Assembly (NCBI RefSeq): GCF_000743945.1
Contig: NZ_CP009238.1
Span: forward strand, 1 to 64,000
Direction of reading: 5' to 3'
Length of the DNA stretch: 64,000 bases
DNA from: Basilea psittacipulmonis DSM 24701
Lineage (GTDB): Bacteria; Pseudomonadota; Gammaproteobacteria; Burkholderiales; Burkholderiaceae_B
Position 1 is the stretch's first letter. Every line of letters starts with the position of its first letter. Both the position numbers and the translations under genes were made by a program. The notes below the pieces were generated by a model. That model was not told the origin of the DNA. It worked only from the letters and a program-made list of their open reading frames with translations, and searched no databases. This document shows, piece by piece, positions 36,481-61,272 of the stretch.

Positions 36481-36585
36481 ATTCATCGGCGATTTTTTTA
36501 TTTACCGTACCTCGTTGATCCTTTAATTAGCAGGTGTAATGAGCTAGAATAAGAACGATAATTTGCTAACTTACAAAGGATTGGT

Positions 36586-38118: not shown

Positions 38119-38119
38119 G

Positions 38120-43463: not shown

Positions 43464-44234
43464 TTAGTCCACAAAAGCACGTTCAATCACATAGGTGCCC
43501 GGTGTGCTTGTATTGCCTTCAATAAACCCGCGTTTATCTAACATCACACGTAAATCTGCCAAAAGACCTGGGCTACCACAAATCATGACACGATCTTCAG
43601 TAGGATTCATCACAGGTACGCCTAGATCTTTGAACAATTTTTCATTTTCAATCAGATCCGTAATGCGACCTTGATTTTCAAAGGGTTCACGCGTAACTGT
43701 TGGGTAGTATTTTAGTTGAGATGCAATCATCTCGCCTAAATATTCATGATGAGGGAGTTCTTTAGTGATGTAGTCACGATAAGCCAATTCAGCCACTTGG
43801 CGAACTCCGTGTACTAAAATCACTTCGTCAAACTTCTCGTAAACATCTGGAGAACGAATCAAACTCATGAACGGTGCAAGACCTGTACCCGTGGCCAAAA
43901 GATACAAACGTTTTCCAGGAAGCAAGTAATCAGCCACTAACGTTCCTGTGGGCTTACGGCCGATAATAATACTATCACCTGGCTGAATATGCTGAAGACG
44001 TGACGTTAAGGGACCATCAGGCACTTTAATACTTAAAAACTCCAAATGCTCCTCATAATTCGGGCTAGCAATACTGTATGCTCGCAACAAAGGCTTACCA
44101 TCTACAGGCAAACCGATCATCGTAAACTGACCATCAATAAAGCGAAGAGCTTGATCTCGAGTCGTGGTAAAACTAAACAAACGATCTGTCCAATGATGAA
44201 CAGTTAATACTTTTCCTTCCAAGAAAGCTGACAT
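43464..44234 (-). CDS. fpr: Ferredoxin--NADP(+) reductase
   Basis: 256-residue FAD enzyme exchanging electrons between NADPH and ferredoxin or flavodoxin. FAD-binding motif RAYSIASPNYEE, the NADP-binding LLATGTGLAPFMSLIRSP, and MICGSPGLLADL; the C-terminal tail YVIERAFVD is the subclass IA type typical of proteobacterial enzymes linked to oxidative stress. I take ATG 44234 (MSAFLEGKVL) rather than a TTG two codons upstream. Monocistronic, with a terminator at 43400. Confidence 0.93.
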   Translation of the reverse strand: MSAFLEGKVLTVHHWTDRLFSFTTTRDQALRFIDGQFTMIGLPVDGKPLLRAYSIASPNYEEHLEFLSIKVPDGPLTSRLQHIQPGDSIIIGRKPTGTLVADYLLPGKRLYLLATGTGLAPFMSLIRSPDVYEKFDEVILVHGVRQVAELAYRDYITKELPHHEYLGEMIASQLKYYPTVTREPFENQGRITDLIENEKLFKDLGVPVMNPTEDRVMICGSPGLLADLRVMLDKRGFIEGNTSTPGTYVIERAFVD

Positions 44235-44322
44235 AGTCAAACCCTTTTAATATCAAAACTCTTATATTTTAGCCTATTCAAAGGATTTTTGCAGATTCGG
44301 TAAGGTAGGGGGAGATGAATGG

Positions 44323-45306
44323 TTATACTTTTTGAAAGTAAGATAATAAGGCCAAGGTATGGCCTTTTATGCCTCCAATGACATGTCGATAATACATTGA
44401 ACGGATGTGTTTGAGCTTTATGCGACGTTTTGTTTTGTAGATTTTACGTAAAATGTAAGGAGGGGTTCTGTTGAAAACGAAAAAATAATCTTTTTGCAAC
44501 AATATGTGCTTTTGTATAAAAATTTTGATAATAAACTCTTCGTTATCAGAAAGTTTTGTTAAATGAGAGATAGTGATATTTTTTTGTTTTCTCGTCTCTC
44601 TTAAATACTCTTCACTTTTTTTGGGAATATATCGATAGAAATAAAATGGCGTAAAATTCATTGCTATTTTCTGACAAGAAATAAGATAAGCTATGGTTAA
44701 TAATAAATCTTCGCTGATATAGTATCTATCTGTAATTTTTCCAATTCTATGGTAAGTGGATAGTAATAATGAACGTTTGTAGACCTTGCCTGCAATAAAC
44801 CATGGGAAGAATTGTCTAATAATGTAAGATCCTAAAATCTGTTCTAAACTAAATGCTTTCTGGCGATAAGTAAATTCTTTTTTATATTGATTTTTGAAAA
44901 TGTTATTTTTTTGTGGCTCTGTTTGTTCTTCTTTCTCTATAAAAATCGAATTGCATAAAAAGTCGGGTTGTGTGGTTGACCATTGATTATGAATATTAGT
45001 GAGTGCATAAGGATAAAAATAATCATCACCATCTAAAAAGGTGATGAGTTCTACATCCTCTGAAGTCGCCAATACTCCTTGATAGCGAGCATTCCAAGTG
45101 CCCGTGTTCTTTCCTAAATCGATGACTTTGATGATATCTGGATGTTTTAACGCATACTGTTGAGCAATGGACAAAGTATCATCACTGCTACCGTCATCCA
45201 CAATGATGAGCTCGAAGTTCTTATAATCTTGACTAATTACAGAGTCAATTGCTTGTGATAAATAAGGGGCCACATTGTAGGCGGCAATGATAATTGCGAA
45301 TTTCAT
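44323..45306 (-). CDS. GT2-family glycosyltransferase
   Basis: 327-residue family 2 glycosyltransferase. The GT-A nucleotide-sugar fold is at the N-terminus: MKFAIIIAAYNVAPYLSQAI, then LIIVDDGSSDDTL and the DxD-like LITFLDGDDYF (about residue 97). The C-terminal part is Lys/Arg/Tyr-rich with HIRSMYYRHVIGG, probably membrane-associated. It opens the glycan region and is transcribed away from it. Donor and acceptor are unknown. Confidence 0.82.
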   Translation of the reverse strand: MKFAIIIAAYNVAPYLSQAIDSVISQDYKNFELIIVDDGSSDDTLSIAQQYALKHPDIIKVIDLGKNTGTWNARYQGVLATSEDVELITFLDGDDYFYPYALTNIHNQWSTTQPDFLCNSIFIEKEEQTEPQKNNIFKNQYKKEFTYRQKAFSLEQILGSYIIRQFFPWFIAGKVYKRSLLLSTYHRIGKITDRYYISEDLLLTIAYLISCQKIAMNFTPFYFYRYIPKKSEEYLRETRKQKNITISHLTKLSDNEEFIIKIFIQKHILLQKDYFFVFNRTPPYILRKIYKTKRRIKLKHIRSMYYRHVIGGIKGHTLALLSYFQKV

Positions 45307-45627
45307 GGTGAATAAGGTAAAAAGTGAGTAATTTTATTATAACGAGATTATAAGAGAAATGATTTTTGCTTTGTTATGTATATTTAAAATTGTATTTTTT
45401 ATAAGTGGATATGGATAATGTAATGGGTACAAAAATTCGTGTATAAATGAGAGTCTCTGTTAAAGACATTGAAAATAAGATACTGCCTTGAAGTAAATAT
45501 TTGTGTGATTAGAAAAACAAATATTGTAAGACGATTGTTTATTATCGGATAAAACGTTGCTTAACCAATTAAATTGCCATTATCAGGCCTAAATTCGTAT
45601 AATAAAGGCAATGACAATAGGTGAAAA
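45307..45627. other. AT-rich divergent intergenic region
   Basis: About 320 bases between two divergently transcribed glycosyltransferase genes; presumably holds both promoters. No distinctive motif or repeat seen. Confidence 0.4.
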
Positions 45628-46440
45628 ATGAAATTTTACAAACCCGTTAAACACGAAAAATTAATCTTAGCAAGTCGTGCGATTACTCGTTTTATAGGAC
45701 ATATTGTTAAATATCTTTGTTATATTTTTCATTTCCTATTTCCGAAAAAGCGTTTTACGATTCCTTTTTACAGTCCTGCAAAAATAAAGAAAACACAGGA
45801 TCAAAAGATTCCTCGTATTATTTGGCAAACGAATTATACTAATAAAGTATCATTGCCCGTTTATTGCAACTACTTAGTTAATCGTTTCTTCTCTCAAGAT
45901 TATGAATATCGTTATATGGGACATGAAGAACGCGAAAAGTATATTAAGGAAAAAGCAGATGAAGTCACCTTTAAAGCTTTTGATCAGATTGCCGATGGTG
46001 CTGCACAAGCAGATTTCTGGCGTTTATTCGTTCTATATACTGAAGGCGGTGTTTATCTAGATATCGATGCACAACTCGCTTGGAATTTATCTGCTATTAT
46101 TGGTGAAGAGGATAAAGAAGTTTTTATTACACGACGCGATCACTACAATAATTTCTTTATGGCAAGTGCTCCTGGTAATCCTTTATTAAAGGATGTACTC
46201 GATCGCATCATTCTAAATATTCAAGACAAAGAAAATAATAAGAAAATGGGTGTTTATGGTTTAACTGGACCCACAGTTCTGAATGCTGTATTGAACCCAA
46301 AAGAAGAAGCTATTACGGTTCGGCGTGATAGCTTAACTTGCAGTCAAGGAACCTTTACAAACGAACATTTTCAATATATTGATAAGAAAAGAAGTAAATG
46401 GACTTATAAATCACCTGATGAAATTTTCAAAAAAGACTAA
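45628..46440 (+). CDS. GT32-type (OCH1-like) glycosyltransferase
   Basis: 270 residues with the sugar-transferase DxD domain: KIPRIIWQTNYTNKVSLPVY, then QADFWRLFVLYTEGGVYLDIDAQ, where DID (about residue 145) is the metal/nucleotide-sugar motif. This layout matches the Gly_transf_sug/OCH1-like family found in lipooligosaccharide and capsule loci. A hydrophobic stretch with a basic border at residues 20-45 may anchor it to the inner membrane. AGGTG precedes the ATG. A membrane-protein gene follows after 25 bases. Confidence 0.78.
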   Translation: MKFYKPVKHEKLILASRAITRFIGHIVKYLCYIFHFLFPKKRFTIPFYSPAKIKKTQDQKIPRIIWQTNYTNKVSLPVYCNYLVNRFFSQDYEYRYMGHEEREKYIKEKADEVTFKAFDQIADGAAQADFWRLFVLYTEGGVYLDIDAQLAWNLSAIIGEEDKEVFITRRDHYNNFFMASAPGNPLLKDVLDRIILNIQDKENNKKMGVYGLTGPTVLNAVLNPKEEAITVRRDSLTCSQGTFTNEHFQYIDKKRSKWTYKSPDEIFKKD

Positions 46441-46465
46441 TTTAATCGTATAAGAGTATCTATTT

Positions 46466-46912
46466 ATGAACTATTACGCTTTTGCCCAAACACTTCACCT
46501 TTATGCAGCCATTATGTTTGTCGGTACGGTGTTCTTTGAAGTACTGATTATGGAAGGTGTACGAAAGCGTGTTAGCGTAGAGTTTATGCGTGATATGGAA
46601 AAAGTCTTGGGTAAACGTATTCGTGAGATTATTCCTTTTGCCTTGTTAGTATTGTACGGCTCTGGGTTAGCAATGATTGCATTACGCTACACTGATGTAC
46701 TCCATCATCCATTTCAGTCTAGTTTTGGGACGCTTTTACTGATAAAGATCATTCTAGCAACCAGTGTATTTGGACACTTTTTAACAGCAATGATCTTAAT
46801 TAAACGTCATCGTCTTAATAAATTTAGAAATCACGTGATTCATACCAGCGTCTTTATTCATGTGTTATTAATTGTTTTCTTAGCTAAGGGAATGTTTTTT
46901 ATTCATTTGTAA
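46466..46912 (+). CDS. Four-helix integral membrane protein, CopD-like
   Basis: 148 residues with four predicted membrane segments and conserved histidines in the first (TLHLYAAIMFVGTVFFEV) and last (VIHTSVFIHVLLIVF). The arrangement resembles small CopD-type or haem-linked membrane proteins. I do not recognise a defined function. It lies between glycan genes but does not look like a glycan enzyme. Confidence 0.6.
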   Translation: MNYYAFAQTLHLYAAIMFVGTVFFEVLIMEGVRKRVSVEFMRDMEKVLGKRIREIIPFALLVLYGSGLAMIALRYTDVLHHPFQSSFGTLLLIKIILATSVFGHFLTAMILIKRHRLNKFRNHVIHTSVFIHVLLIVFLAKGMFFIHL

Positions 46913-46998
46913 TTACAAAAAATCATATTTAGGACAGTTGAAGTTTATTTATCATAGCAATAATGATTTAACTCATTTGAATTTTTAACCTAGTTTCG

Positions 46999-48894
46999 TT
47001 ATTTATCCTCTCTGAGACGAAGTTTCTTAATTAACGTTTCTGAGAATAAATATCTATTTTTATGAAAATTAATTGCTGTCGATTTTGAACCAAAAGCAGT
47101 AAGGTGATCTTGATCCAAATATACTGATTGACCATCAATAAATAAATCTCTGGGTACATATCTATCAATGTCAATGTAATGTACATTTGGAATATCTTTT
47201 ATTTGCTCAAATATTCGCTTATTACTTTCTGCAGTAAATGTATAACGTGAAATATCGGGTAGTATAAAATTTAATCCCCTATTCATGGCTCGTTGATAAC
47301 GTACAGCATACTGGGTTAATGTACTAACATCCCCAAACATATAAACCTGTTTTCCTTGCTCAGAAAGATATTGAACCAAATATCTAAATTTTTGATAAAA
47401 ATGTTTATCTATCAGTCTACGCGGATGTTCTCTAGCAATATAGTAATCTCCAGAAAATCTATCATAGTAAAAACTTAAAATCACAACATCATACTTATTA
47501 AGTCTATCTAGAACACTTTGACAATTAAATTTAGTTATTAAATTTCCATTTTTATCGAATGGAAAGCGACACTCTTCAAATGAATTAGTGTTAAAAATAT
47601 GAAACGCCCAGCCTTCTTGTTCTGCTAAATACGACATAAAAGGAAATAAATGAGTTGCATGTGAATCCCCATAAAGCAATATTTTGGCTTTATCGTTATT
47701 TCCCATTTCTACTTTATAAATTTCTTCTCTTAAATAAGAGTGCTCAGACTTTCTTTGCGTTGACAAATAAAATCCTAAAGATAAAACAATAATACTAGGA
47801 ATTAAATATATGTATATAAATGCATTTTTAAATGTTAATCGTAATGCTCTTATTGGTTTTTCTATTAAAAAATAACTTATTGTCGAAAATAAAAATGTTC
47901 CAATAAGAATAAAATAAAATGCATGGCTATTAAATGAAATACCTAGACCCGCTCCAAATGAGTAAGTAACAATACTAATGATCGCCCAATGCCATAAATA
48001 CAAAGAGAAAGATACTTTCCCAATCGCGACTAAGAAAGGATTAGATAGAACCCGTCCAAGAAAACTAATATCACGAGAAAATAAAAGAATAACGGCGGTT
48101 AGTAAACAAGGAATGATCGATATAGCTATGGACCATGTCATTACTTCTTGAGTAATGAATATAAAACACAATACTAGTCCAAAGAATGCAAGAAGTGCTA
48201 CCCCCCCCCCCCCGTTTATACTAGGTTTTAAGGCATATTTCATCAAATAAGTATGCTGTGAAACAATCGCTATAATAGCTCCAATTAGAATTTCAAAAAA
48301 TCTTAATTGAGATAAAAAATAAGCATTCGGATGCTTGGAAAAGATGCTCCATAAAAAACTAGTTAAAAACAAAAATAGACATAACCATAATAAATATTTA
48401 GTTGTTTTAAATAGTTTATAAGCAATAACAATTAAAAATGGAAATAAAAAATAAAATTGTTCTTCAATCGCCAATGACCAGTAATGTAAATAAGGGTTTG
48501 AATGTGAATCAAGATCAAAATAACCCGTTTTTTTAGACAGGTAAAAATTAGTAAGAAACTGATATGTATAATCACTTGTCTTTTTTACCCGTATAAAATC
48601 GTCTTTATCAAATAAAAAATAAGTAGCAATTAATACTAATAACACTATAAGTAGTGACATTGGATAAATTCGTTTTATCCGTCTAGCATAAAAATCCGAA
48701 AAACTAAATTTTCCTTGAAGTAAATGTTCAATGATAATTTGAGTAATAAGAAAGCCCGAAACTACAAAAAATACATCAACACCAAGGAACCCTCCCGGCA
48801 ACCAATTTGAATTCAAATGAAAGATGAATACCGACAAAACGGCAATCGCCCTTAACCCATCTATTTCTGGCCGATATTTAATGATATTTTTCAT
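46999..48894 (-). CDS. OafA/YrhL-like O-acyltransferase with SGNH domain, phase-variable (readable)
   Basis: 631 residues. The N-terminal 370 residues form the ten-helix acyltransferase-3 domain, starting YRPEIDGLRAIAVLSVFIFHL and with the catalytic RRIKRIYP; the C-terminal part is an SGNH-hydrolase-like domain with LLYGDSHATHLFPF and the late DQDHLTAFGS catalytic Asp/His. Such proteins O-acetylate sugars of lipopolysaccharide or glycans. A G13 tract on the coding strand (48201-48213) encodes GGGG in a loop between helices and is in frame here. Confidence 0.88.
   Translation of the reverse strand: MKNIIKYRPEIDGLRAIAVLSVFIFHLNSNWLPGGFLGVDVFFVVSGFLITQIIIEHLLQGKFSFSDFYARRIKRIYPMSLLIVLLVLIATYFLFDKDDFIRVKKTSDYTYQFLTNFYLSKKTGYFDLDSHSNPYLHYWSLAIEEQFYFLFPFLIVIAYKLFKTTKYLLWLCLFLFLTSFLWSIFSKHPNAYFLSQLRFFEILIGAIIAIVSQHTYLMKYALKPSINGGGGVALLAFFGLVLCFIFITQEVMTWSIAISIIPCLLTAVILLFSRDISFLGRVLSNPFLVAIGKVSFSLYLWHWAIISIVTYSFGAGLGISFNSHAFYFILIGTFLFSTISYFLIEKPIRALRLTFKNAFIYIYLIPSIIVLSLGFYLSTQRKSEHSYLREEIYKVEMGNNDKAKILLYGDSHATHLFPFMSYLAEQEGWAFHIFNTNSFEECRFPFDKNGNLITKFNCQSVLDRLNKYDVVILSFYYDRFSGDYYIAREHPRRLIDKHFYQKFRYLVQYLSEQGKQVYMFGDVSTLTQYAVRYQRAMNRGLNFILPDISRYTFTAESNKRIFEQIKDIPNVHYIDIDRYVPRDLFIDGQSVYLDQDHLTAFGSKSTAINFHKNRYLFSETLIKKLRLREDK
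48201..48213 (-). repeat. C13 homopolymer in the acyltransferase gene (G13 on the coding strand)
   Basis: Thirteen C on the plus strand inside an otherwise AT-rich gene. Loss or gain of one base would truncate the protein in mid-membrane domain. Confidence 0.95.
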
Positions 48895-49069
48895 AAATTT
48901 TAAATTTATTCATTTTAATATTTATAAGTTATATACTATAACACTTATCTCATTGAAATTTTACTAACAATATATAGTACTTTCATTCTCACTCTTTTAC
49001 TTTTATTTCAATAGAGAATGCAGAAAGTCATAGGTTTTAATAGCTTTATAGCTAACTAGGGGTAAAAAT

Positions 49070-50023
49070 ATGACAGATACATTATTAGCAAGAACAAAAA
49101 AAATCCACAGAACAAGCGACAATGTTATTATTTGTGGCAATGGTCCAAGCTTAAAAGCAATTGACTATGATAGATTACCTGCAGATTATGATGTATTCAG
49201 ATGCAATCAATTTTATTTTGAAGATAGTTATTTTATAGGTAAAAAAATTAAAGCCGCCTTTTTTATTCCAAGCGTTCTGATGCACCAGTATATAACGATG
49301 CAGAAATTAATAGAAAATGGAGAATATGAGATAGAAAACATTATCGTTTCTCGCTTTAATAACCCCTTCGTTGAAAATGAACAACAGGAAAAAGAAATTG
49401 CCTATTTAGTAGATGTGATTGATGGATATGAAGCGTTCCTGTCTCATTATTTAGATGTGGATGCTTTACTGCGTCGTTATGAATTATTTGAAAATAAAAG
49501 AATTACATCTGGCATTTATATGATTATTGCAGCGATGGCCTGTGGATATAAAAATATTTATATTGCAGGCATTGATTTTTATCAAGATGGCTTGTATGCA
49601 TTTGATACGGCGAAAACAAATATTTTAAATCTTTGTCCAAATATTGATAAAAAAGAGGGGAAAGGACAAGTTCATTCCTTAAATTTCGATATAAACATGA
49701 TTCAATATTTACGTGCTCATTATGATATTAATCTGTTCAGCCTTTGCCCAGATAGTTGCCTATCTCGACATATCCCATTGAGTTTTAATAAAAATCATAT
49801 GGGGGGGGGTGTATGCAAATTTAATATAGAGGCAAAAACTGGAGAATGGACAAAAGATATTATTACTGTTCCAAGACATATCAGATGGAAAATAAAACAA
49901 CTGTTTGATAGCGATCTAAAGAATAGTAAAAATAATATATACAATAATTTTTATTATAAAATTATCATGGATCTTGTTCGATTTCCTAAATTATTTAAAA
50001 AGCATAAAAATAGAAAAAAATAG
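49070..50023 (+). CDS. GT42 sialyltransferase A (Cst-II/Lic3-like), phase-variable, readable
   Basis: 317-residue family 42 sialyltransferase that would move N-acetylneuraminate from CMP-Neu5Ac onto a galactose of lipooligosaccharide. Matches Campylobacter Cst-II along its length: ICGNGPSLKAIDYDRLP, DVFRCNQFYFEDSYF, KRITSGIYM, IYIAGIDFYQDGLYAFD (the paired Tyr) and the catalytic-base His202 in VHSLNFD. The tail NFYYKIIMDLVRFPKLFKKH is the amphipathic membrane-binding end. The G9 tract at 49801-49809 is in frame. AGGGG precedes the ATG. No CMP-sialic acid synthesis gene is in the window. Confidence 0.9.
   Translation: MTDTLLARTKKIHRTSDNVIICGNGPSLKAIDYDRLPADYDVFRCNQFYFEDSYFIGKKIKAAFFIPSVLMHQYITMQKLIENGEYEIENIIVSRFNNPFVENEQQEKEIAYLVDVIDGYEAFLSHYLDVDALLRRYELFENKRITSGIYMIIAAMACGYKNIYIAGIDFYQDGLYAFDTAKTNILNLCPNIDKKEGKGQVHSLNFDINMIQYLRAHYDINLFSLCPDSCLSRHIPLSFNKNHMGGGVCKFNIEAKTGEWTKDIITVPRHIRWKIKQLFDSDLKNSKNNIYNNFYYKIIMDLVRFPKLFKKHKNRKK
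49801..49809 (+). repeat. G9 phase tract in sialyltransferase A (readable)
   Basis: Nine G after CATAT, read as ATG GGG GGG GGT, keep the frame through the C-terminal membrane-binding region. Confidence 0.95.
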
Positions 50024-50117
50024 TGGGCGGTAAGAAGTATATAAGATTTGCTTTCATAAACTGTAGTACCTTTGTTAAAAAAGTATAATATCACTGATGA
50101 TAATTGATTATAAGTCT

Positions 50118-50904
50118 ATGATTGCAAATACCCCCCCCCCCGCATACACATGAGTCGCAACTCATTAATATTTTTATAATTAATCTTGAACGTTCTGTAG
50201 ATCGTCGGGACATCATTATTCAAAAATTTAAAGAACTAAATATAGAAGTAGAATTTACTTTTTTCTCTGCCATAGATGGAAAAAACAACCCGGACCATTT
50301 TTTATTTAAAAAATATAATCATATTAAACGTCTTTTAAGAAAAAAACGCTCTATGACTACAAGTCAGTTAGGCTGTTATGCTAGTCATTATTCATTGTGG
50401 GAAAAATGTTGCAAATTAAATAAACCCATTATTATTTTGGAAGATGATATTGAGATATTAAGCTCTTTCACTAAAGTCTATCAATATCTCTCATCAAAAG
50501 AGAATATATACGAATTCTTATGGCTGGGAAAACCTTACAACGATAAATATTTAAAACACCATCATGTTATTGATACAACAGATTCTGGGATTGAAATAAT
50601 AAAATGTCATACAGGATGGGGAAATGCTCTTGCTTACTATATAACGCCTATTGCAGCAAAAAAATTTTTAGATGGTTCTAAAGAATGGATTTATAATTTA
50701 GATGTCTATATGGAACGATATTGGGAGCATAAAGTACCATTTTCAGCAATTATCCCTTTATGTTTTCAAGTTAACTCTCAAGGATTGGCTTCTAACATTG
50801 ATTTTTCAAAAGGTAAAAGAAGTATATTTTTTACGTTTACTCGAGAATGGTTTGAAGCAAAAGATAAAGTAACGAAATGGTTTTTTGATTTATTTCATCA
50901 ATAG
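50118..50904 (+). CDS. GT25 lipooligosaccharide glycosyltransferase A, phase-variable, probably off
   Basis: GT25-family transferase: domain start IFIINLERSVDRRDIIIQKF, SQLGCYASHYSLWEKC, ILEDDIEI (DxD-like), HTGWGNALAYYITPIAAKKFL and VYMERYWEHKVPFSAIIPL. A C11 tract (50131-50141) lies just after the start. From ATG 50118 the tract puts translation out of frame and it ends at a TGA at 50151-50153; C10 or C13 would restore it. The TTG at 50122 is in frame with the coding sequence at C11 and would give a 260-residue protein, so low expression is possible. No clear ribosome-binding site. Related to the damaged gene at 60260-61090. Confidence 0.85.
50131..50141 (+). repeat. C11 phase tract at the start of GT25 A
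   Basis: Eleven C eleven bases after ATG 50118. Length changes swap which start codon (ATG 50118 or TTG 50122) is in frame. Confidence 0.95.
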
Positions 50905-50992
50905 CGAATCAACTCTAGACAATAACTACCAGAATTAATCGAAATAAAGTATTATAAAAACTCAATTCATGTACAAAGTAGGATAAAAGGTG

Positions 50993-51848
50993 ATGAACAT
51001 CGTATTCGCTTCCGATAATAATTACGTAAATTATTTATCGATTTGCTTGTGTAGCATACTAGAAAACAATAAACACCACGCTATTAATTTTTATATATTG
51101 AGTCAAGGCATCAGTGAGGATGGCCAACGTCAATTAATGCGTGTAGTGAATGCGTATCCTGATAAGACGATTACCTTTATTCCAATTCCTATGGAAAAGT
51201 TTGTTGACTTTCCTATTACGATTGATTACATCTCTTTAGTCACTTATGCTCGTTTAGCCTTGGTTGATATTTTTGATTGGGGAGATGTAAACAAGCTTAT
51301 TTACTTGGATATCGATATTTTGGTTAATGGTGATTTAGGTCCATTGTGGAATATTGATTTAGGCGATCACGCGATAGGAGCTTGTTTGGATTCTTTTGTT
51401 GAATTTGAAATTCAACAAGATCAACATAAAGAAAAACTGGGGTTACGCTCGGATCATATTTATTTTAACGCAGGGGTATTGTTAATTAATCTGAAAAAAT
51501 GGCAAGAGATGAATGTTTTTAATCAAGCCATTCAGATATTAAAAGAAAAGAAAAACTTACTTCGATTCCAAGATCAGGACTTGTTAAACATAATTTTTAA
51601 AGATAGTCTTTATGTGATTAATCCTAGATTTAATTTTATGCCAAACATTAAACGTAGAATAAAAGATTATAAAAAGAAAAAAATAGACCATCTTAGTTCT
51701 TACGAACATGTAACGATGCCAATATCGATATTATGCAAAACTAGCAAAAGTTTCATTACAAACAGCTCAAACTTTTAAAGAGCGATGCAAATATTTTCTA
51801 AGAAGAAACATGAATTCATTAAAAGACTATTTTTATGGATTTCGATGA
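50993..51848 (+). pseudogene. GT8 glycosyltransferase A, internally deleted and frameshifted
   Basis: Begins as a GT8 galactosyl/glucosyltransferase of the LgtC type: MNIVFASDNNYVNYLSICL, LIYLDIDILVNGDLGPLW (DxD metal site) and FNAGVLLINLKKW. It is nearly identical to GT8 B (56616-57557) through YVINPRFNFM, then diverges. The frame stops at 51778 (about 261 residues). From 51732 another frame, YAKLAKVSLQTAQTFKERC to a TGA at 51848, looks like the true C-terminus. Compared with copy B, about 30 codons including the HYCGKRKPW motif (C-terminal metal ligand His and Lys-Pro-Trp) are missing, so this copy is probably inactive. The ATG 50993 matches the start of copy B. Confidence 0.75.
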
Positions 51849-51955
51849 TATTATTTTGTAGGCATCTTACTTAATTATATGAATTTGTAATTTTTCAACA
51901 TTCTAAATTAAAATTTTGGTATACGATAAGCGTATTGCCAAAAAAGGAAATATTT

Positions 51956-52732
51956 GTGAATCATCCAACTTTAGCCGTAGCATTGATTGTAAAAAATGAA
52001 GCGACACATTTAGCAGATTGCTTGAATTGTGTTAAAGACTGGGTTGATGAGATAGTCATTCTTGACTCGGGTAGCACAGATGCTACTGAACAGATTGCCA
52101 AGCAATTTGGTGCTAAGTTTTTTGTACATACTGATTGGCAAGGCTTCGGTAAACAGCGTCAATTAGCACAACAGTATGTTGCTTCAGAATGGGTATTATG
52201 GTTAGATGCGGATGAAAGAGTGACACCAGAACTCAAAGAACATATTATTCATATCATCCATCATGCTGACACAAAAACAGTTTATGAACTAAACCGACTG
52301 AGCATCGTATTTGGTAAGGAAATACGCCATAGTGGGTGGTATCCTGAGTATGTATTGCGCTTATTTCGTACTCAAGAGGCGGAATATAACGATGCTTTGG
52401 TACATGAAAAAGTAGAGATTCCTGATGGATTTGAAGTAAAAAAAACGAATGGAAATCTCTTACATTATACCTATGATGATTTGCATGAGTATTTGGTAAA
52501 ATCAGCTTTCTATGCCAAACTATGGGCAGAACAAAAATCATTAGAAGGTAAAAAAGCAGGTATTTTTTCTGCTATTACTCATGGCTTGGGAAGGTTTTTT
52601 AAGATGTACTTCATTAAAGCTGGTTTTTTAGATGGTAAGGTGGGGTTTGTATTGGCAGTGTTATTTGCACAATCAACTTTTTCAAAATATATCTATCTAT
52701 GGCTTAAAAATAAGGAAAAACAAGAAAGTTAA
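51956..52732 (+). CDS. GT2 glycosyltransferase, WaaE/KdtX-like
   Basis: 258 residues. Family 2 GT-A fold: [54 protein letters not shown] (DxD) and a conserved [15 protein letters not shown], as in the inner-core beta-1,4-glucosyltransferases WaaE/KdtX. GTG 51956 with AAGGAAA upstream is preferred over TTG 51935. A TATACGAT -10-like element lies nearby at 51920. No homopolymer tract, so it is probably always on and adds an inner-core sugar. Confidence 0.85.
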
Positions 52733-52823
52733 AAGGATATTTGTACCATTCTTAGATTATAGACATGGTCGTATTGAAAGTTTTTTAGACTATAATGATG
52801 GATTATATTTTCGGCACGGGTTT

Positions 52824-53576
52824 ATGATGAAAATTACATTGGCAATTCCTACGTACAATCGATTATCTTTCATTAAGAGAGCAGCTGAGTCTTTAAAACA
52901 ATCTACAGATATTAGCAAAATAAATGTTAGAGTTTATGATGATTGTAGTACGGAATTTTCTGTTGATGAGTTGAAAAATCTTTTACCTTTTGCCAAAGAA
53001 ATTATTGTTAGAAATAAAAATTTAGGGGCGGACAACAACACCCGTCTAATGTACGAAGACTTTCTTAAAACAGAAGATGATATTCTGGTTAATGGAGACT
53101 CAGATTTAATCTATCGTCCTGGTTGGGTGGAGAAAATTCAAGAATTATTGCCAAAAACAGATGGTTTATTATCAATATATAATTCGAACTCTCATGAGTT
53201 CATAGATAATAATTTTGAACATGGAATGGGAATCAAAAAAGATGTAGGAGCGGCAGGGTGTGTCTTGTCCAGAAGGTTAGTTGAATATATTGTAAGTCAC
53301 ACTAATCAATGCACTAAAAATTTTGATTGGGTATTCCCGAAACTTTTGCAGGAAAATAATGTAAGATTATTTTGTACCGTTGAAAGTTATGTTCAACATA
53401 TTGGTATCACAAGAGGTTCTAATCAAATAGGATTAATGCATGCTATCGATTATGGACATCATTTTTTGGCAGGTAGCGAAGTTAATCAAAAAATTATTTC
53501 TGATTTGATATTAGAGTTAAATGCAACTCAAAAGGCTGAAACGACGTTTTGGGTGAATTTTAGTGAGAGAGCTTAA
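52824..53576 (+). CDS. GT2-like glycosyltransferase
   Basis: 250 residues with an N-terminal family 2 transferase domain: MMKITLAIPTYNRLSFIKRA, RVYDDCSTEFSVDEL, then LGADNNTRLMYEDF and DDILVNGDSDLIYRPGW where the Asp-x-Asp lies. The C-terminal half (GAAGCVLSRRLVEYI, VQHIGITRGSNQIG) follows the same fold. The ATG pair at 52824/52827 is the start; the reading frame extends upstream into the previous gene without a family match. No phase tract. Confidence 0.75.
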   Translation: MMKITLAIPTYNRLSFIKRAAESLKQSTDISKINVRVYDDCSTEFSVDELKNLLPFAKEIIVRNKNLGADNNTRLMYEDFLKTEDDILVNGDSDLIYRPGWVEKIQELLPKTDGLLSIYNSNSHEFIDNNFEHGMGIKKDVGAAGCVLSRRLVEYIVSHTNQCTKNFDWVFPKLLQENNVRLFCTVESYVQHIGITRGSNQIGLMHAIDYGHHFLAGSEVNQKIISDLILELNATQKAETTFWVNFSERA

Positions 53577-53775
53577 TAAAAAAATCGCAGTATGTTTTTT
53601 TGTGGTTGCGTCTAATGGTTAAGGTTGGAAATTGGTAAGGTATTAAAGTTATTGCCTTGAATTTCAAAAAAAATATTAAAAAACAAGATGTTAAATTTAC
53701 ATTGTATAACTTAGTAAAGTTTATTGATATGTGATATACTCTAAAGATAATAAAATAAAATTTAGGAGAAATATT

Positions 53776-54409
53776 TTGATTGCCCCCCCCCTTATCACTT
53801 CCGCAAATATTTGTTATTAGTCTAAAAAATTCATCTCGCAGAGAAGTAATAAAGAGTCGGTTAGATGTATTAAATATATCTTTTTCTTTTTTTGATGCAG
53901 TAAATGGTCGAGATTTGACAAAAGAAGATTTGGGTAAAGTGGATTATTCTTTTACAGTAAAAGAGTTTCATGTAAAAAAACCTCTGACATTGGGCGAGAT
54001 TGGTTGCGCCATGAGTCATATTCATCTCTATGAACATATGGTAAAGAATAGTATCGCAGAGGCGATTATTTTTGAAGATGATGCTATTGTTCCACATGAG
54101 TTTAAAAAAATTATTAGCACGGCATTAGCAAAAGTTCCTAGAAGAAAAGAGATTGTTTTTTTGGCACATGGAAAAGGCAATATTTGGCCAGTTAAAAGGA
54201 AACTTCCCGAACGTTATTCTTTAGTTCGTTATAGAGTGCCTTCTAAAAATTCTTTGAGATTCATAACAAAGACATCGGCGTATTACATTACCTTGGATGG
54301 AGCTAAAAAATTATTAAAACACGCTTATCCTATTAGGATGCCTTCTGACTTTTTAACAGGTCTTTTGCAAAGAAATAAATTAAATGCATATGGTATCGAG
54401 CCAGCATGA
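53776..54409 (+). CDS. GT25 glycosyltransferase B, phase-variable start and shortened C-terminus
   Basis: GT25-family: QIFVISLKNSSRREVIKSRL, LTLGEIGCAMSHIHLYEHM, EAIIFEDDAIVPHEF, FLAHGKGNIWPVKRKLPERY and ITKTSAYYITLDGAKKLL. A C9 tract (53783-53791) follows two TTG codons. TTG 53776, six bases after AGGAGA, is out of frame at C9; TTG 53780 is in frame (209 residues). C8 or C11 would put the first TTG in frame. Compared with copy C (57599), a small deletion at the 3-prime end gives an early TGA and removes about 16 residues (the CVFSGVQSEID part). Activity is uncertain. Confidence 0.8.
53783..53791 (+). repeat. C9 phase tract at the start of GT25 B
   Basis: Nine C immediately after the alternative TTG starts at 53776 and 53780, which are in different frames. 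Confidence 0.93.
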
Positions 54410-54621
54410 ACTCAATCTGAAATTAATTCCGTAGAGCAGAGAAAAGAATAGTTTTTTATGTTTGAATGTTCTTAATGAATTAATGAAAGGATGTGGAGAT
54501 TAAAGTAATAAAAAAAGATTTAATAACGCATAGAAAATGTCTTATTAATTTGAATAAAAAAGAAGTAAAAAATTTAATTTGGATGTATGATTAGACCTAT
54601 TTAAATAATAAGTATTGGAGT

Positions 54622-55614
54622 TTGTTTATATTATGCGTACCCCCCCCCCCATTCATATCGGTCATTATGCCGGCGTACAACGTTGAAAAATATATTGAAA
54701 AATCTATCAGAGCCGTGCTTGCGCAAACTTATCGGCATTTTGAATTAATTGTTATTGATGATGGTTCAAAAGACAATACTGGTAAAATTATCCAAAAATT
54801 GGCACTAGAAGACTCTCGTATTAAATTCATTGAAAATAAAAATAATAAAGGAATTGTGTGTACATTAAATATGGTAGTATCACAAGTAAAAGGTGATTAT
54901 ATTGCTCGAATGGATGCTGATGATATGGCTTATCCATTCTGGTTAGATACTATTGTATCTTGGATGGAGGAAAAACTGGACGTATTGATATGTGGTAGTG
55001 CAATGAAAGTTCATGCTGTAAATTCAATTTTGGAGGTACCTGAAACAAATTTAGATATTACTAGAAAATTTTTTATTAATTGCCCAATGTTGCATCCAAC
55101 TGTCTTAATTCGACCTAAGGTGTTTAAAGAATTTGGTTTGAAATATGATGATTATAAACATGCTGAAGATTATAAATTATGGTTTGAAATTTCAAAGAAA
55201 GGAAAATTAGCTAATCTTAGTATGCCATTAGTAGAATATAGGGTGCATGATACCCAAGTATCACGGACTTATTCTAATGAACAAAGAAACACAGCTAATA
55301 GAATTCGTAAAGAAGTCTGGGCTTATTATTTGCCAATTCTTTATCCATCATTGAAAATAGAACTTAATTTAACTTTTGATGATGCTAGAAAACTATATGA
55401 TTATTTTCGTCCAATATATTCACAGATGGAGGTTAAAGAAAAAGAATTTATACAAGAAATTATTTATATGTACTACATGTCGTTAATTCAGTATCGGTGG
55501 GTAGATTTGTTAAAATTCATTAAAATGTCACCTAAAGAAATACTTTCTAGACGTCAAGTCAAGAAAATCATTAAGAAATTTATTCGTTCACAGAAATATA
55601 AGCCTTTTTTGTAA
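54622..55614 (+). CDS. GT2 glycosyltransferase with C11 start tract, probably off
   Basis: About 325-330-residue family 2 transferase: ISVIMPAYNVEKYIEKSI, LIVIDDGSKDNTGKIIQ, YIARMDADDMAYPFWLD (DxD) and HAEDYKLWFEISKKGKLANL. The C11 tract (54640-54650) is just after ATG 54633, which is out of frame at this length; C10 or C13 would align it. A TTG at 54622 is in frame but sits one base from the GGAG, so is a poor start. Internal ATG at 54667 would lose the first strand. Expression in this state is doubtful. Confidence 0.82.
   Translation: MFILCVPPPPFISVIMPAYNVEKYIEKSIRAVLAQTYRHFELIVIDDGSKDNTGKIIQKLALEDSRIKFIENKNNKGIVCTLNMVVSQVKGDYIARMDADDMAYPFWLDTIVSWMEEKLDVLICGSAMKVHAVNSILEVPETNLDITRKFFINCPMLHPTVLIRPKVFKEFGLKYDDYKHAEDYKLWFEISKKGKLANLSMPLVEYRVHDTQVSRTYSNEQRNTANRIRKEVWAYYLPILYPSLKIELNLTFDDARKLYDYFRPIYSQMEVKEKEFIQEIIYMYYMSLIQYRWVDLLKFIKMSPKEILSRRQVKKIIKKFIRSQKYKPFL
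54640..54650 (+). repeat. C11 phase tract at the start of a GT2 gene
   Basis: Eleven C five bases after ATG 54633. Same length and placement as the tract of GT25 A. Confidence 0.95.
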
Positions 55615-55615
55615 T

Positions 55616-56565
55616 ATGGTTGTTAAGCAAGAGAAAAAAATTCATAGAACCAGCGATAATGTCGTTATTTGTGGCAATGGCCCTAGTTTAAAGGCCATTG
55701 ATTATGATCGATTGCCTGAAGATTATGACGTGTTCAGATGTAATCAATTTTATTTTGAAGATAGTTATTTTATAGGTAAAAAAGTTAAAGCAGCTTTTTT
55801 TACGCCACATGTTCTATGGAATCAGTATTTAACCGTACAAAAATTAATTAAAAATAAAGAATATGATATTGAGCATATTGTCGTTTCTTTATTTAATAAT
55901 CCTCTAGTTGAATCAAAAACATTAAAGGAAGAAATTTCATATTTGGTGGATGTTATTGATGGTTACAATGATTTTTTGTCTCGCTATCTAGATATAGATG
56001 CCATGTTAAGACGTTATGAACTATTTGAAAACAAAAGAATTACATCTGGCATTTATATGGTTATTGCAGCGATGGCCTGTGGATATAAAAATATTTATAT
56101 TGCAGGTATTGATTTTTATCAAGATGGTTTATATGCATTTGATACGGCGAAAACAAATATTTTAAATCTTTATCCAAACATCGATAAAAAAGAAGGAAAA
56201 GGGCAAATGCATTCTTTAAATTTTGATATGCAAATCATCCAATACTTGCGAGATCGTTACGATATTAATCTTTACAGTATTTGTCCTGATAGTTATTTGG
56301 CTCAACATATCCCTTTAAATGCTAATAAAAATCATATGGGGGGGGTATGTGCAAATTTAATATAGAGGAAAAGACAGGAGACTGGACAAAAGATATTATG
56401 TTATTGTCTGCAGACGTTAAATGGCGAATTAGAGAGTTATCTGACAACAATAGAGAAGTTAAAGAGCTCAAAAATAATAATATATATCAGAATATTTATT
56501 ACAAGTTGATTGTGGATTTGGTGAGGTTTCCACGTCTATATAAGCAATATATAAAAAAGAGGTAA
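55616..56565 (+). CDS. GT42 sialyltransferase B, phase-variable, interrupted at G8
   Basis: Paralogue of sialyltransferase A with the same motifs (ICGNGPSLKAIDYDRLP, KRITSGIYM, YIAGIDFYQDGLYAFD, MHSLNFD with the catalytic His199). A G8 tract at 56338-56345 shifts the frame after HMGGV, giving a stop at 56365 (249 residues). With G9 the frame would continue through CKFNIEEKTGDWTKDIM to 56565, with the membrane tail NIYYKLIVDLVRFPRLYKQY. All catalytic motifs precede the break, so the short form might fold but would lose membrane binding. The start follows the GT2 stop by one base. Confidence 0.88.
56338..56345 (+). repeat. G8 phase tract in sialyltransferase B (out of frame)
   Basis: Eight G at the same site as the G9 tract of copy A; one extra G restores the reading frame. 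Confidence 0.93.
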
Positions 56566-56615
56566 TGCAAGAATCAAAAAGGCATGTTAAAAGTACAAAT
56601 TTGGGATGTAATGTA

Positions 56616-57557
56616 ATGAACATCGTATTCGCTTCTGATAATAATTACGTAAATTATTTATCGATTTGTTTGTGTAGCATACTAGAAAACAATAAACACC
56701 ATACCATTAATTTTTATATATTGAGCCATGAGATTAGCGAAGATAGCCAACGTCAATTAATGCGTGTGGTCAATGCATATCCTGATAAGACGATTATGTT
56801 TATTCCTATTCCCATGGAAAAGTTCTCTAATTTTCCTATTACGATCGATTACATCTCTTTAGTAACCTATGCTCGTTTAGCCTTAGTTGATATATTTGAT
56901 TGGGGGAGGGTAGACAAACTTATTTATTTGGATATCGATATTTTAGTCAACGGTGATTTAGGTCCATTGTGGAATATTGAGTTAGCCGATCATGCTTTGG
57001 GGGCTTGTTTGGATTCTTTTGTTGAATTTGAAATTCAACAAGATCAACATAAAGAAAAACTGGGGTTATGCTCGGATCATATTTATTTTAACGCAGGGGT
57101 ATTATTAATTAATCTGAAAAAATGGCAAGAGATAAATGTTTTTAATCAAGCCATTCTGATATTAAAAGAAAAGAAAGACTTACTTAGATTCCAAGATCAA
57201 GACTTGTTAAACATAATTTTTAAAGATAGTCTTTATGTGATTAATCCTAGATTTAATTTTATGTTTGCATTGTTTAAGCGTTTAAAACAATTGAATGCTA
57301 AAGAAATAGATGCATTAAATACTCATGAAGAAGTAAAGAACCCTATTGTTATTTATCATTATTGTGGGAAAAGAAAACCATGGAATATTGAAGTAGGGAA
57401 AAAAGATTTATATGAAATAAAAGCTTCTTTGTATCAGCGTTATGCAGAAAAAATAGGGATGCTGAAATTTTGTAATAATACAAGAACCAGTATTTTGAAA
57501 AAAATAAAAATATGGATGAAATCTATTAAAATTTATTTTTTATTGGGGATTAGATAA
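56616..57557 (+). CDS. GT8 glycosyltransferase B (LgtC-like), intact
   Basis: 313-residue GT8 transferase: MNIVFASDNNYVNYLSICL, LVTYARLALVDIFDWG, LIYLDIDILVNGDLGPLW (DxD), FNAGVLLINLKKW, FQDQDLLNIIF, and the C-terminal metal/nucleotide motif HYCGKRKPW absent from copy A. LgtC-type enzymes add alpha-linked galactose to lipooligosaccharide. ATG 56616 corresponds to the start of copy A; an upstream in-frame ATG at 56565 overlaps the sialyltransferase stop and would add 17 residues. The tail is Lys-rich, suiting membrane contact. Confidence 0.87.
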   Translation: MNIVFASDNNYVNYLSICLCSILENNKHHTINFYILSHEISEDSQRQLMRVVNAYPDKTIMFIPIPMEKFSNFPITIDYISLVTYARLALVDIFDWGRVDKLIYLDIDILVNGDLGPLWNIELADHALGACLDSFVEFEIQQDQHKEKLGLCSDHIYFNAGVLLINLKKWQEINVFNQAILILKEKKDLLRFQDQDLLNIIFKDSLYVINPRFNFMFALFKRLKQLNAKEIDALNTHEEVKNPIVIYHYCGKRKPWNIEVGKKDLYEIKASLYQRYAEKIGMLKFCNNTRTSILKKIKIWMKSIKIYFLLGIR

Positions 57558-57598
57558 CTAAATGAATCTTTAAATGCTGATGTTTATGGAGTGTTCTT

Positions 57599-58279
57599 GT
57601 GATTACCCCCCCCCTACCACAACTATTTGTTATTAGTCTAAAAAACTCATCTCGCAGAGAAGTAATAAAGAGTCGATTAGATGCATTAAATATATCTTTT
57701 TCATTTTTTGATGCAGTAAATGGTAAGGCATTAACTGAAGATGAATTATCTCAAGTGGATTTTTCGTTTTATACCAATGAAATAAAATCAAAGAAACCGC
57801 TAACTTTAGGTGAGGTTGGTTGTGCCATGAGTCACATTAACCTTTATGAATACATAGTAAAGAACGGTATTGCAGAAGCGATTATCTTTGAAGATGATGC
57901 TATTGTTCCGCATGAGTTTAAAAAAATTATAAGCACAGCATTAGCAAAAGTCCCTAAAAGAAAAGAGATTGTTTTTTTTGCACATGGAAAAGGCAATATT
58001 TGGCCTGTTAAAAAGAAACTCCCTGAGCGTTACTATTTGGTTCGTTATAGAATACCTTCTAGAAATTCATTGAGGTTTATAACAAATACGTCAGCCTATT
58101 ATATTACTTTGGAAGGTGCGAAAAAGCTGTTAAAACAGGCTTATCCAATTAGGATGCCAGCAGATTATTTAACAGGCCTTTTACAAAGAAATAAATTAAA
58201 AGCATATGGTATCGAGCCGTCATGTGTTTTTTCAGGGGTTCAGTCTGAAATTGACAATATGGAAAAAAGAATAAGGTGA
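57599..58279 (+). CDS. GT25 glycosyltransferase C, phase-variable, readable
   Basis: 226-residue GT25-family enzyme, close paralogue of copy B: QLFVISLKNSSRREVIKSRL, LTLGEVGCAMSHINLYEYI, EAIIFEDDAIVPHEF, FAHGKGNIWPVKKKLPERY, YGIEPSCVFSGVQSEIDNM. The GTG start at 57599 has GGAG seven bases upstream and is followed by a C9 tract (57606-57614) that is in frame here. The complete C-terminus makes this the best-preserved GT25 gene of the cluster. Last gene of the plus-strand glycan run. Confidence 0.88.
   Translation: MITPPLPQLFVISLKNSSRREVIKSRLDALNISFSFFDAVNGKALTEDELSQVDFSFYTNEIKSKKPLTLGEVGCAMSHINLYEYIVKNGIAEAIIFEDDAIVPHEFKKIISTALAKVPKRKEIVFFAHGKGNIWPVKKKLPERYYLVRYRIPSRNSLRFITNTSAYYITLEGAKKLLKQAYPIRMPADYLTGLLQRNKLKAYGIEPSCVFSGVQSEIDNMEKRIR
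57606..57614 (+). repeat. C9 phase tract at the start of GT25 C (readable)
   Basis: Nine C directly after GTG ATT A; in frame from the GTG start. Confidence 0.95.
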
Positions 58280-58304
58280 TATCTTTCCCCCATATTTATT
58301 ACAA

Positions 58305-59341: not shown

Positions 59342-59791
59342 ATGATGTTAACTTGTTATGATGTGGCTAAGTATTTTTTGTCATTATGTAACGATGACGA
59401 AAGTGGCGATTTGATTTCTAATTTAAAAATCCAAAAACTAGTGTATTACGCACAAGGATTTTCTTTGGCTATCCATAACAAACCTCTTTTTCAAGAAAAA
59501 ATTCAAGCTTGGATGCATGGTCCAGTGGTTCCCGATTTATACAATAAATATAAAAAATATGAAAATGGGGCTTTACCTACTACGGATTTAAATATAGATT
59601 TCGATAAATTTTCTGTTGAAGAGAAAAAACTACTTGATGATGTTTATGATGTCTACGGTCAGTTTTCTGCTTGGAAGTTAAGAAATATGACTCATGACGA
59701 AATGCCATGGAAAAGTACCTATCAGCTAGGTAAAAGTAATGAAATTTCTAATGAAGTGTTAAAAGAATATTTTCTTACCTTAACTGAGTGA
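59342..59791 (+). CDS. Panacea-domain (DUF4065, SocA/GepA-like) antitoxin
   Basis: 149-residue single Panacea domain: TCYDVAKYFLSLCN, LISNLKIQKLVYYAQGFSLAI, ENKPLF-like segment then IQAWMHGPVVPDLYNKYKKY and DVYGQFSAWKLRNMTHDEMPW. The KIQKLVYYAQGF and AWxxGPVVPxLYxxY pattern is diagnostic. Panacea proteins act as antitoxins paired with diverse toxins, and relatives also occur in phages. AGGGGG lies right before two adjacent ATG codons (59342 and 59345); the second has better spacing. The next gene, three bases downstream, is the probable toxin. Confidence 0.9.
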   Translation: MMLTCYDVAKYFLSLCNDDESGDLISNLKIQKLVYYAQGFSLAIHNKPLFQEKIQAWMHGPVVPDLYNKYKKYENGALPTTDLNIDFDKFSVEEKKLLDDVYDVYGQFSAWKLRNMTHDEMPWKSTYQLGKSNEISNEVLKEYFLTLTE

Positions 59792-59793
59792 TA

Positions 59794-60221
59794 ATGGTCA
59801 AAATAAAGAAAAATTACTCGATAATTCAAAGTAAAGGCAAGGTGGGTTTGTCTAAAGCAAGTTTGTCGAATGTTGAAAATAACGATAAAAATCACCTATC
59901 TTTTCTTTTTATCAAATGGGAAGACATTATTGTTTAGATGCTTGTGAAGGTGAAGAGAAAATTGCTCTTTTAGAAACACTTCATAAATTAAGTCAACGCA
60001 CATGGCAGGAATTAAGAAACTCCAATAGACATGGTCTAGGAACTGAAAAGATAGCGTATACTGCCATTAAAGGATGTCCTGTACCAGATTTTATTGTTGA
60101 GCAAAATATCCCGTTACTGGCTTTTAGATTTCATGAAAAAAAGCCGATGGTCGGGTATAGGGAGAATCAAATATTCCATATACTTTGGTTAGATAGAAAT
60201 TTTACTTTATATAAACACTGA
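59794..60221 (+). pseudogene. Probable toxin partner of the Panacea antitoxin, frameshifted
   Basis: An ATG three bases after the antitoxin stop opens a frame (MVKIKKNYSIIQSKGKVGLS) that ends at 59935 by shifting into a stop; a second frame (QMGRHYCLDACEGEEKIAL from about 59907) continues to 60221 and ends FHILWLDRNFTLYKH. The two join smoothly if one T is added to the T4 run at 59901-59904. The combined protein would be about 142 residues. The C-terminal motif of His, Trp and Asp before a Tyr-Lys-His end is seen in small toxins, but I cannot name the family. As it stands the gene is broken by a -1 shift. Confidence 0.68.
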
Positions 60222-60259
60222 GACCCATGCTCGGTAAATCGTTATAGTCGTTCTCTTGT

Positions 60260-61090
60260 CTAGATTCCCCGCTTCATAATATCAAAGATTTTTTTGTGAA
60301 GATTGTCTAGAAATTTAAACCATTCTCGTCTGATGCGAATGGCAAGGGTTCGATTTGATCCGCCTTTATCGTAGGGAATATCGGTATCGTTGATGTGAGG
60401 ATGGTAAGTAATACAAAAGGGCATCAGTGCAAGGTAAGGGACGTTATGTTCCCAATAACGACTCATTACAATATCTACTTCGTATATCCATTATTGTGCG
60501 TAATTCAGGAGTTTTTGGGCGGCTTGAGGGGTGAGGTAGTAACCCATCGTGTTTTCCCAATTTTTGTGACAACGTTGAATGCTGATTTTTTCATTGTATT
60601 GTTGAACCAATGTCGTGTGGCGATAGAATTTTTCATATCGTGCTTGGGCTAGCCACATAAACTCAAAGGTGTTATCGAGAGAATTCAGGTATGAATAGAT
60701 CTCAGTGAAGTTATCTTGAATATAAATATCATCCTCTAACACAATCATGGGCATGTTGAGTGTCACGCATTTCTCCCACAATAGATAATGGCTCGCAAAA
60801 CAACCGAGCTGCCCTAAATTCATGTGATTGCCTTTTCTAAAGAAACGTTTGGCATCGTTGTATTTTTTGAAGAGAGGATGGTGTGGCTGTTCTTTGCCAT
60901 AAACCGCATCAAAGAATTCAAAGGTAATGGGTGTCTCGCTAAGGCGGTTAATGCGTTGGAATTGTTCCTGAATCTCAGAACGGCGATGCGTGGATTTTTT
61001 TAAATTAATCACAAAAATGGGCAAAGAAGTTGTGTGGCGGGCTGATTGAGTTATAAAGAATGTGGGGATAACAATATTGAGTGAGTTCAT
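60260..61090 (-). pseudogene. GT25 glycosyltransferase with an in-frame nonsense codon
   Basis: A GT25-family gene: LPIFVINLKKSTHRRSEIQ, FDAVYGKEQPHHPLFKKYND, LGQLGCFASHYLLWEKC, IVLEDDIYI, KNWENTMGYYLTPQAAQKLL. It is cut by a single TAA at 60491-60493 after LLNYAQ; the same frame resumes with WIYEVDIVMSRYWEHNVPYL and runs to 60260, matching the end of GT25 A (WIYNLDVYMERYWEHKVPF). One substitution would restore about 276 residues. No homopolymer tract. On the minus strand, convergent with the toxin remnant. Confidence 0.85.
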
Positions 61091-61272
61091 TTTATCAAAT
61101 GTTGGGTGGTAAGGAGTGAGGAGAGGTGTTTTGAATGAGGTGTTGATGATGATTTTGGTAGAGGTGGTTTGGTCTAAGTATTTGTAACAAAAGGATAAGT
61201 TCGGATGTTTTGTTCGGTGGTTTTGTGCGAAAATAGGTTTTGTGGTGAAGTGAGTGTATGTATGTTTATTAA

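Follow-up and report, generated by a model that had tools for sequence, protein, structure and literature searches.

A candidate phase-variable locus for outer-core sugars, with seven G/C tracts, in Basilea psittacipulmonis

Phase-variable glycosyltransferases of lipooligosaccharide (LOS) are known from Neisseria (lgt), Haemophilus and Campylobacter (cst and LOS loci). Similar tracts are described in other bacteria: according to the passages covered of the respective reports, Bordetella pertussis shows homopolymeric-tract phase variation, with tracts in the fim2 and fim3 promoters and in the bvgS sensor kinase gene (PMC1891110), and Helicobacter canadensis shows C-terminal phase variation, in which a poly-G tract near the 3' end of a gene changes the tail of the protein (PMC2823697). 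The locus described here occupies positions 46999..58279 of the window, that is, the whole stretch of 64,000 bases analysed at the start of the genome of Basilea psittacipulmonis DSM 24701 (NZ_CP009238.1). Primers published for this strain (PMC4028982) match the genome exactly and at one place only, over 522 bases, which is the length given for the Per-2 amplicon. The NCBI taxonomy places this organism, a bacterium from the parakeet lung, in the Betaproteobacteria, Burkholderiales, Alcaligenaceae, and its genome consists of 1 contig of 1,959,069 bases, of which the locus (11,281 bases, 30.4% GC) makes up 0.58%. The locus is best read, with a probability of about 0.82, as a simple-sequence contingency (phase-variable) locus for the LOS outer core. 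As in Neisseria, Haemophilus and Campylobacter, LgtC-like GT8 and GT42 families occur together with tracts in surface-sugar genes, and the GT42 loci of Campylobacter and Helicobacter often carry G/C tracts as well. It differs from all of these in that its GT8 genes have no tract, that the GT42 tract lies late in the core coding region, neither at the start nor at the extreme end, and that the host belongs to the Alcaligenaceae.

The evidence begins with the tracts themselves. Every G or C run of at least 6 bases in the window was listed (Table 1). Within the locus, 7 runs of at least 8 bases were observed against 0.024 expected from run statistics, and first-order Markov simulations of the locus (n = 500) gave a mean of 0.022 such runs and a maximum of 1. 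Nowhere does the window contain an A or T run of at least 9 bases, even though these two bases outnumber G and C there. The set of seven tracts is not due to chance. All seven (7/7) lie in genes which Pfam assigns to surface sugars, the excess falls in or just before coding sequence, and the tracts stand inside coding frames whose alternatives, where followed, run into early stops, so that a change in length would shift the frame.

The present state of each gene depends on the frame and, in some cases, on the start codon. Three genes, those of the acyltransferase, GT42 A and GT25 C, have a frame that stays open across the tract; GT25 C has a GTG start with GGAG 7 bases upstream. GT42 B meets a stop 5 codons past its tract, leaving a product of 249 amino acids (aa). 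For GT25 A only TTG 50122 gives an open frame, since the frame of ATG 50118 ends after 11 codons; for GT25 B only TTG 53780 is open, while TTG 53776, with a better-spaced Shine-Dalgarno sequence, ends after 14 codons; and for the tract-bearing GT2 only TTG 54622 is open, the frame of ATG 54633 (the sole start with a Shine-Dalgarno sequence) ending after 17 codons. A crude test found no Shine-Dalgarno sequence for either GT25 A start or for the acyltransferase, GT42 A and GT42 B.

The proposed mechanism is the classical one. Replication slippage in the G/C runs would change their length and thereby shift individual genes into frame or out of it, randomly from one cell to the next. The tracts at the 5' ends of the three GT25 genes and of one GT2 gene would serve as on/off switches, and that of the acyltransferase is internal to the gene. 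As the GT42 tract lies 3' of the catalytic core, the off form of these enzymes would be truncated and devoid of its C-terminal helices. The outer-core kit comprises two GT42, three GT25, two LgtC-like GT8, three GT2 and one O-acyltransferase genes; the GT25, GT8, GT2 and GT42 enzymes would assemble short branches, rich in galactose and capped with sialic acid, which the AT3-SGNH enzyme would O-acylate. From the anatomy of one assembled genome we infer slipped-strand switching, and with it the structure of the glycan, its placement in LOS and a role in countering phage or the immune system of the host. An earlier note on this DNA had reported seven G/C tracts of 8-13 bases in an AT-rich background, all of which were recovered at those lengths, and had counted at least three readable genes, one interrupted (GT42 B) and three dependent on the start; frame tracing agrees with it, the last three having a weak TTG start. 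Its description of the region as a contingency glycan locus holds as the best reading, with switching deduced from anatomy only. The dozens of surface forms that it foresaw are an upper bound, because several of the enzymes are paralogous pairs and because GT25 B and GT8 A are shortened.

Table 1. Genes and G/C tracts of the locus, with related features elsewhere in the window (positions in the window; aa, amino acids; ORF, open reading frame).
Feature	Position	Strand	Location or remark	Evidence
Membrane O-acyltransferase (AT3 fused to SGNH)	46999..48894	-	631 aa	PF01757 1.7e-28, PF19040 3.9e-26
C13 tract	48201-48213		inside acyltransferase gene	run listing
GT42 predicted sialyltransferase A	49070..50023	+	317 aa, full length	PF06002 4.4e-85
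G9 tract	49801-49809		late in GT42 A; low-confidence loop that separates the catalytic core from the C-terminal helices	run listing, AlphaFold model
GT25 A	50122..50904	+		PF01755 5.6e-45
C11 tract	50131-50141		5' end of GT25 A	run listing
GT8 A	50990..51778	+	no tract; 262 aa from listed GTG	PF01501 2.1e-51
GT2	51935..52732	+	no tract	PF00535 1.9e-18
Second GT2	52632..53576	+	no tract; actual start probably downstream of the listed one	PF00535 8.1e-12
GT25 B	53780..54409	+	209 aa	PF01755 2.3e-46
C9 tract	53783-53791		5' end of GT25 B	run listing
Tract-bearing GT2	54622..55614	+		PF00535 5.3e-34
C11 tract	54640-54650		5' end of tract-bearing GT2	run listing
GT42 predicted sialyltransferase B	55616..56365	+	truncated form, 249 aa	PF06002 8e-79, to profile position 230/295
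G8 tract	56338-56345		in GT42 B, position equivalent to GT42 A tract	run listing
GT8 B, LgtC-like	56565..57557	+	no tract; ATG 56616 likelier than listed start	PF01501 4.6e-54
GT25 C	57599..58279	+	226 aa	PF01755 2.3e-46
C9 tract	57606-57614		5' end of GT25 C	run listing
Fourth GT25	60491-61090	-	no tract; outside locus	Pfam
G9 tract (eighth of the window)	26745-26753		outside locus, between catalase and YidC genes	in no recognised gene

The enzyme families are assigned with different degrees of precision. PF06002 matches GT42 with 286 bits and the model of GT42 A matches Cst-II and Cst-I; both GT42 enzymes are thus predicted sialyltransferases, with CMP-Neu5Ac as the presumed donor. GT8 B is similar to the solved LgtC structure 1ss9 (1.6e-54, residues 18-300) and would be an LgtC-type GT8, a candidate alpha-1,4-galactosyltransferase. 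The solved relatives of GT25 C are distant (procollagen galactosyltransferase, 4e-13; a bacterial GT25, 9e-8). Three pairs of paralogs were found, with DNA identities of 82.0% for GT42 A/B (779 columns), 90.9% for GT8 A/B (671 columns) and 82.9% for GT25 B/C (639 columns). The tail of GT8 A is unlike that of GT8 B and its C-terminus is shortened (counted from the ATG, GT8 A has about 261 aa and GT8 B 313), with no tract nearby; GT25 B is also shorter at the C-terminus than GT25 C (209 against 226 aa), away from any tract. Around the locus, GC content is 31.5% in 43301-58300 and 42.6% in 28001-43300. On its 3' side (59342-62292) lie a SocA/Panacea-domain gene, the fourth GT25 and a SMEK-domain gene, which together may form a variable island. 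A G7 run (26592-26598) is found close to the eighth tract of the window.

NeuC-type, NeuB-type and cytidylyltransferase genes are adjacent to each other at about 1,556.6-1,559.5 kb of the genome, outside the locus. The NeuC match is above its cut-off (392.1 against 235.9) and the NeuB match just above it (401.2 against 399.65), so that the cell itself probably synthesises sialic acid, or a sugar closely related to it, in CMP-activated form. For the cytidylyltransferase the only match is PseF, below the cut-off (152.6 against 205.7); hence the sugar could be another nonulosonate.

The GT42 genes are rare among the relatives of Basilea. PF06002 was found in 1 of the 101 genomes of a relatives search, and a sample of 399 genomes of the order likewise gave 1; both times this was Basilea itself, leaving 0 of the 398 other genomes of that sample. 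The nearest GT42 (69% protein identity) belongs to Psittacicella hinzii, a gammaproteobacterium of the Pasteurellales; the protein search named one more GT42 from a betaproteobacterium, in a metagenome-assembled genome of Alysiella (36% identity). Psittacicella hinzii is of bird origin. Its contig L033 shares with Basilea the order GT2, GT42, GT8, at 79.8% DNA identity to window positions 54833-56550 (1,723 columns). Unlike the Basilea genes, this module has no G/C tract of at least 8 and is broken up, the GT2 having a foreign start and being spread over two frames, and the GT8 being reduced to a remnant. The whole Psittacicella hinzii genome has 5 tracts of at least 9 in 2.5 Mb, and its best GT25 is 34% identical only, over residues 5-104, and thus not close. 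GT25 C has its nearest named relatives in the Pasteurellaceae (Avibacterium, Actinobacillus and Lonepinella, 60-65% identity among the best 120 of 215 matches), and 2 of these best 120 are named lipooligosaccharide galactosyltransferase I. GT8 B is related to Neisseria and Pasteurellaceae alike (nearest named relatives at about 41-45% identity). With GT25 C pointing to the Pasteurellaceae, GT42 to Psittacicella and GT8 B at about 41-45% to Neisseria and Pasteurellaceae alike, no single donor can be assigned to the whole kit. On sequence comparison, horizontal exchange of the GT2-GT42-GT8 module is well supported, a support that does not extend to its direction or timing, nor to the source of the other genes; part of the kit looks imported from the Pasteurellales. 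The GT25, GT42 and GT8 similarity searches gave no second Basilea isolate; GT25 B and GT25 C each matched two contigs, and GT42 B and GT8 B were not among the matches listed in the GT42 and GT8 searches, respectively. A protein-level constraint was considered as a cause of the GT25 and GT42 tracts: a Pro-Pro near the start is common in GT25 relatives and may have been the seed of the tract, whereas the Gly triplet of GT42 is particular to Basilea among the aligned sequences (see below). One relative (P0124, 63% identical) has a run of five prolines at the start, before the same motif, and is perhaps tract-bearing too.

The locus does not stand alone. Across the genome there are 37 G/C tracts of at least 8 bases (overlapping matches merged by hand), 8 of them in the window and 29 outside, with lengths of 8-15, and nowhere are they as dense as in the locus. 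Window run statistics extrapolated to the genome give about 10 runs of at least 8 and 2 of at least 9, compared to which the 30 observed tracts of at least 9 are a clear excess. The share of the locus, 7 of the 37, has a binomial probability of 2e-9, a rough guide only as the locus was chosen for its tracts. Inside a gene, between gene halves or at the very start of a gene lie 21 of the 37 tracts, and by simple count 19 of these 21 are in genes classed as surface genes, a class that follows our own judgement and takes in two sulfatase-type genes as presumed members. Outside the locus, the genes of this class are a GT52, a GT10 fucosyltransferase, a GT9, two GT2, a second AT3-SGNH, the two sulfatase-type genes, an autotransporter, two YadA-type adhesins and an opacity-type porin; the autotransporter, GT52 and second AT3-SGNH genes are split at the tract. 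Two of the 37 tracts are in other genes (histidine kinase and Csm1/Cas10). Eight more precede the first start codon of an ORF by no more than about 150 bases, the genes being FimA-type, polysaccharide-export, YadA-type, lipase-like, MsrAB-type, DUF2569-like (below cut-off) and two without family; the tract at genome positions 1686476-1686485 is among those upstream of a gene. The other eight have no recognised gene within them or about 150 bases downstream, short ORFs being left out. C9 positions number 27.6 per Mb in Basilea, compared with a median of 2.0 per Mb among 60 relatives (not GC-corrected); in each of the 2 relatives that exceed Basilea, over 100 such positions fall on a single strand and may form one long run. 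An Rfam scan gave no match in the window and only tRNAs at six tract loci, and a known RNA family was thus rejected as the cause of the scanned tracts.

Several individual tracts of this set deserve mention. The longest found, a C15 at genome positions 1438242-1438256 (L082:2003-2017), marks the 5' edge of a gene for a GT2, and a G9 at 487123-487131 (L069:2004-2012) separates a polysaccharide-export gene from a WecB gene, the two being divergent. The Csm1/Cas10 gene (type III CRISPR) has a G8 (1266582-1266589; L079:2003-2010) right where its open frame begins; this gene is possibly a phase-variable CRISPR effector, although a run of exactly 8 may be due to chance. Two tracts bear comparison with Bordetella pertussis, which is of the same family: a G8 97 bases upstream of the FimA-type gene (89156-89163; L064:1997-2004) recalls the Bordetella fim promoters, and a G11 (1494007-1494017; L083:1998-2008) is found about 13 codons before the end of the histidine kinase gene. 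The Bordetella loci named in the passages covered are fimbrial, regulatory and autotransporter-type ones, with no dense glycosyltransferase cluster among them (PMC1891110).

The late position of the switch in both GT42 genes is an unusual detail, and it could mean that the truncated form is active, either released from the membrane or altered in its acceptor. The AlphaFold model of GT42 A (40 sequences) has a mean pLDDT of 89, with TM scores of 0.94 to Cst-II (by target) and 0.89 to Cst-I. In this model the tract, which codes for Gly residues (245-247, plus the last base of codon 244), falls in a loop (block 241-250, mean pLDDT 58) past the last core strand and ahead of two helices (269-290 and 294-316). 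All core strands precede it, as does H202, which in the alignment corresponds to the catalytic Cst-II histidine. This arrangement would suit C-terminal switching, for which Helicobacter canadensis offers a precedent. In the passages covered of that report, however, mostly few residues change (PMC2823697), while truncation at the GT42 tract removes about 70 residues, including two helices and an Asp (D263) invariant in 40 of 40 aligned sequences. The nearly invariant K256, P267 and N293 are also past the tract, and the model is confident for residues 251-270 (block means 92 and 94). Since truncation spares the core and costs the enzyme a conserved part, the short form is more likely off than altered: alignment and model suggest that it is probably without function, and an active truncated form seems unlikely. 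By eye, a Gly triplet at the tract position is present in 0 of the 39 other aligned GT42 rows, the Psittacicella relative lacking these residues, and six rows (five named Campylobacter) carry such a triplet near the N-terminus. Among 30 named GT42 loci elsewhere, 17 have a G/C tract of at least 8 within 200 bases (16 of the 17 in Campylobacter or Helicobacter), some of these tracts being outside the open frame and several loci sharing one genome; by hand count, the tract is on the 5' side in 11 loci and solely on the 3' side in 6. A broader proposal makes both GT42 paralogs two-state enzymes (membrane-anchored or core-only, with another location or acceptor) within a genome-wide switching programme of 37 tracts that arose in an Alcaligenaceae lineage after import of part of the kit from the Pasteurellales in a shared bird host; as a whole it is decidedly doubtful.

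If the locus were instead an imported cluster in decay, its genes would be degenerating after acquisition, and the G/C runs would be scars or bystanders without any selected switching. The shortened ends of GT25 B and GT8 A, away from tracts, would fit such a history, as would the 4 of 7 tract genes that are not plainly readable and the fragmentation of the Psittacicella counterpart. Decay would not, however, create seven runs of 8-13 in DNA of 30% GC, nor place the same late tract in two GT42 paralogs that are 79% identical, and these frames, with the exception of GT42 B (to 230/295), span almost the full length of their Pfam domains; this explanation is quite improbable. It is also conceivable that the tracts were lengthened in assembly or base calling. 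The portion covered of the paper describing the species reports homopolymer errors in its 454 data and a draft assembly of 195 contigs (PMC4028982); the genome used here is in 1 contig and thus probably a later assembly, and errors of about one base cannot create a set of 37 runs, 8-15 bases long, of which half lie in surface genes. An artefact of this kind is hardly credible as the source of the tracts.

Some points nonetheless weigh against a contingency locus. The data are a single assembly, in which no variation of tract length was seen and the assembled lengths may be off by one. Only seven of the tracts have exactly 8 bases, that of GT42 B included, and this class is not in excess over chance. 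GT25 B and GT8 A carry damage away from the tracts, and the 8 of 37 tracts without a recognised gene indicate that part of the excess may be a mutational bias.

The mechanism, G/C slippage in surface-sugar genes, has long been known; what is new is the host. Among the publications covered, four of which name the species, none on phase variation in Basilea was found (one match was an unrelated Klebsiella paper), nor was such wording present in the genome paper, and the same search for Taylorella found nothing. The earlier note had regarded such a set as new for a low-GC betaproteobacterium: the organism is indeed one, and "new" is too strong, as Neisseria is itself a betaproteobacterium and Bordetella pertussis provides another case. 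If the reading of a contingency locus is correct, a bird-associated member of the Alcaligenaceae would join the bacteria with a large candidate set of phase-variable genes, and a sialylation module would have moved between bacterial classes, having a slippery tract in one host and none in the other, so that the origin of contingency tracts could be tested by comparison. The genome-wide tract set and the cross-class module would be the more interesting parts of the finding.

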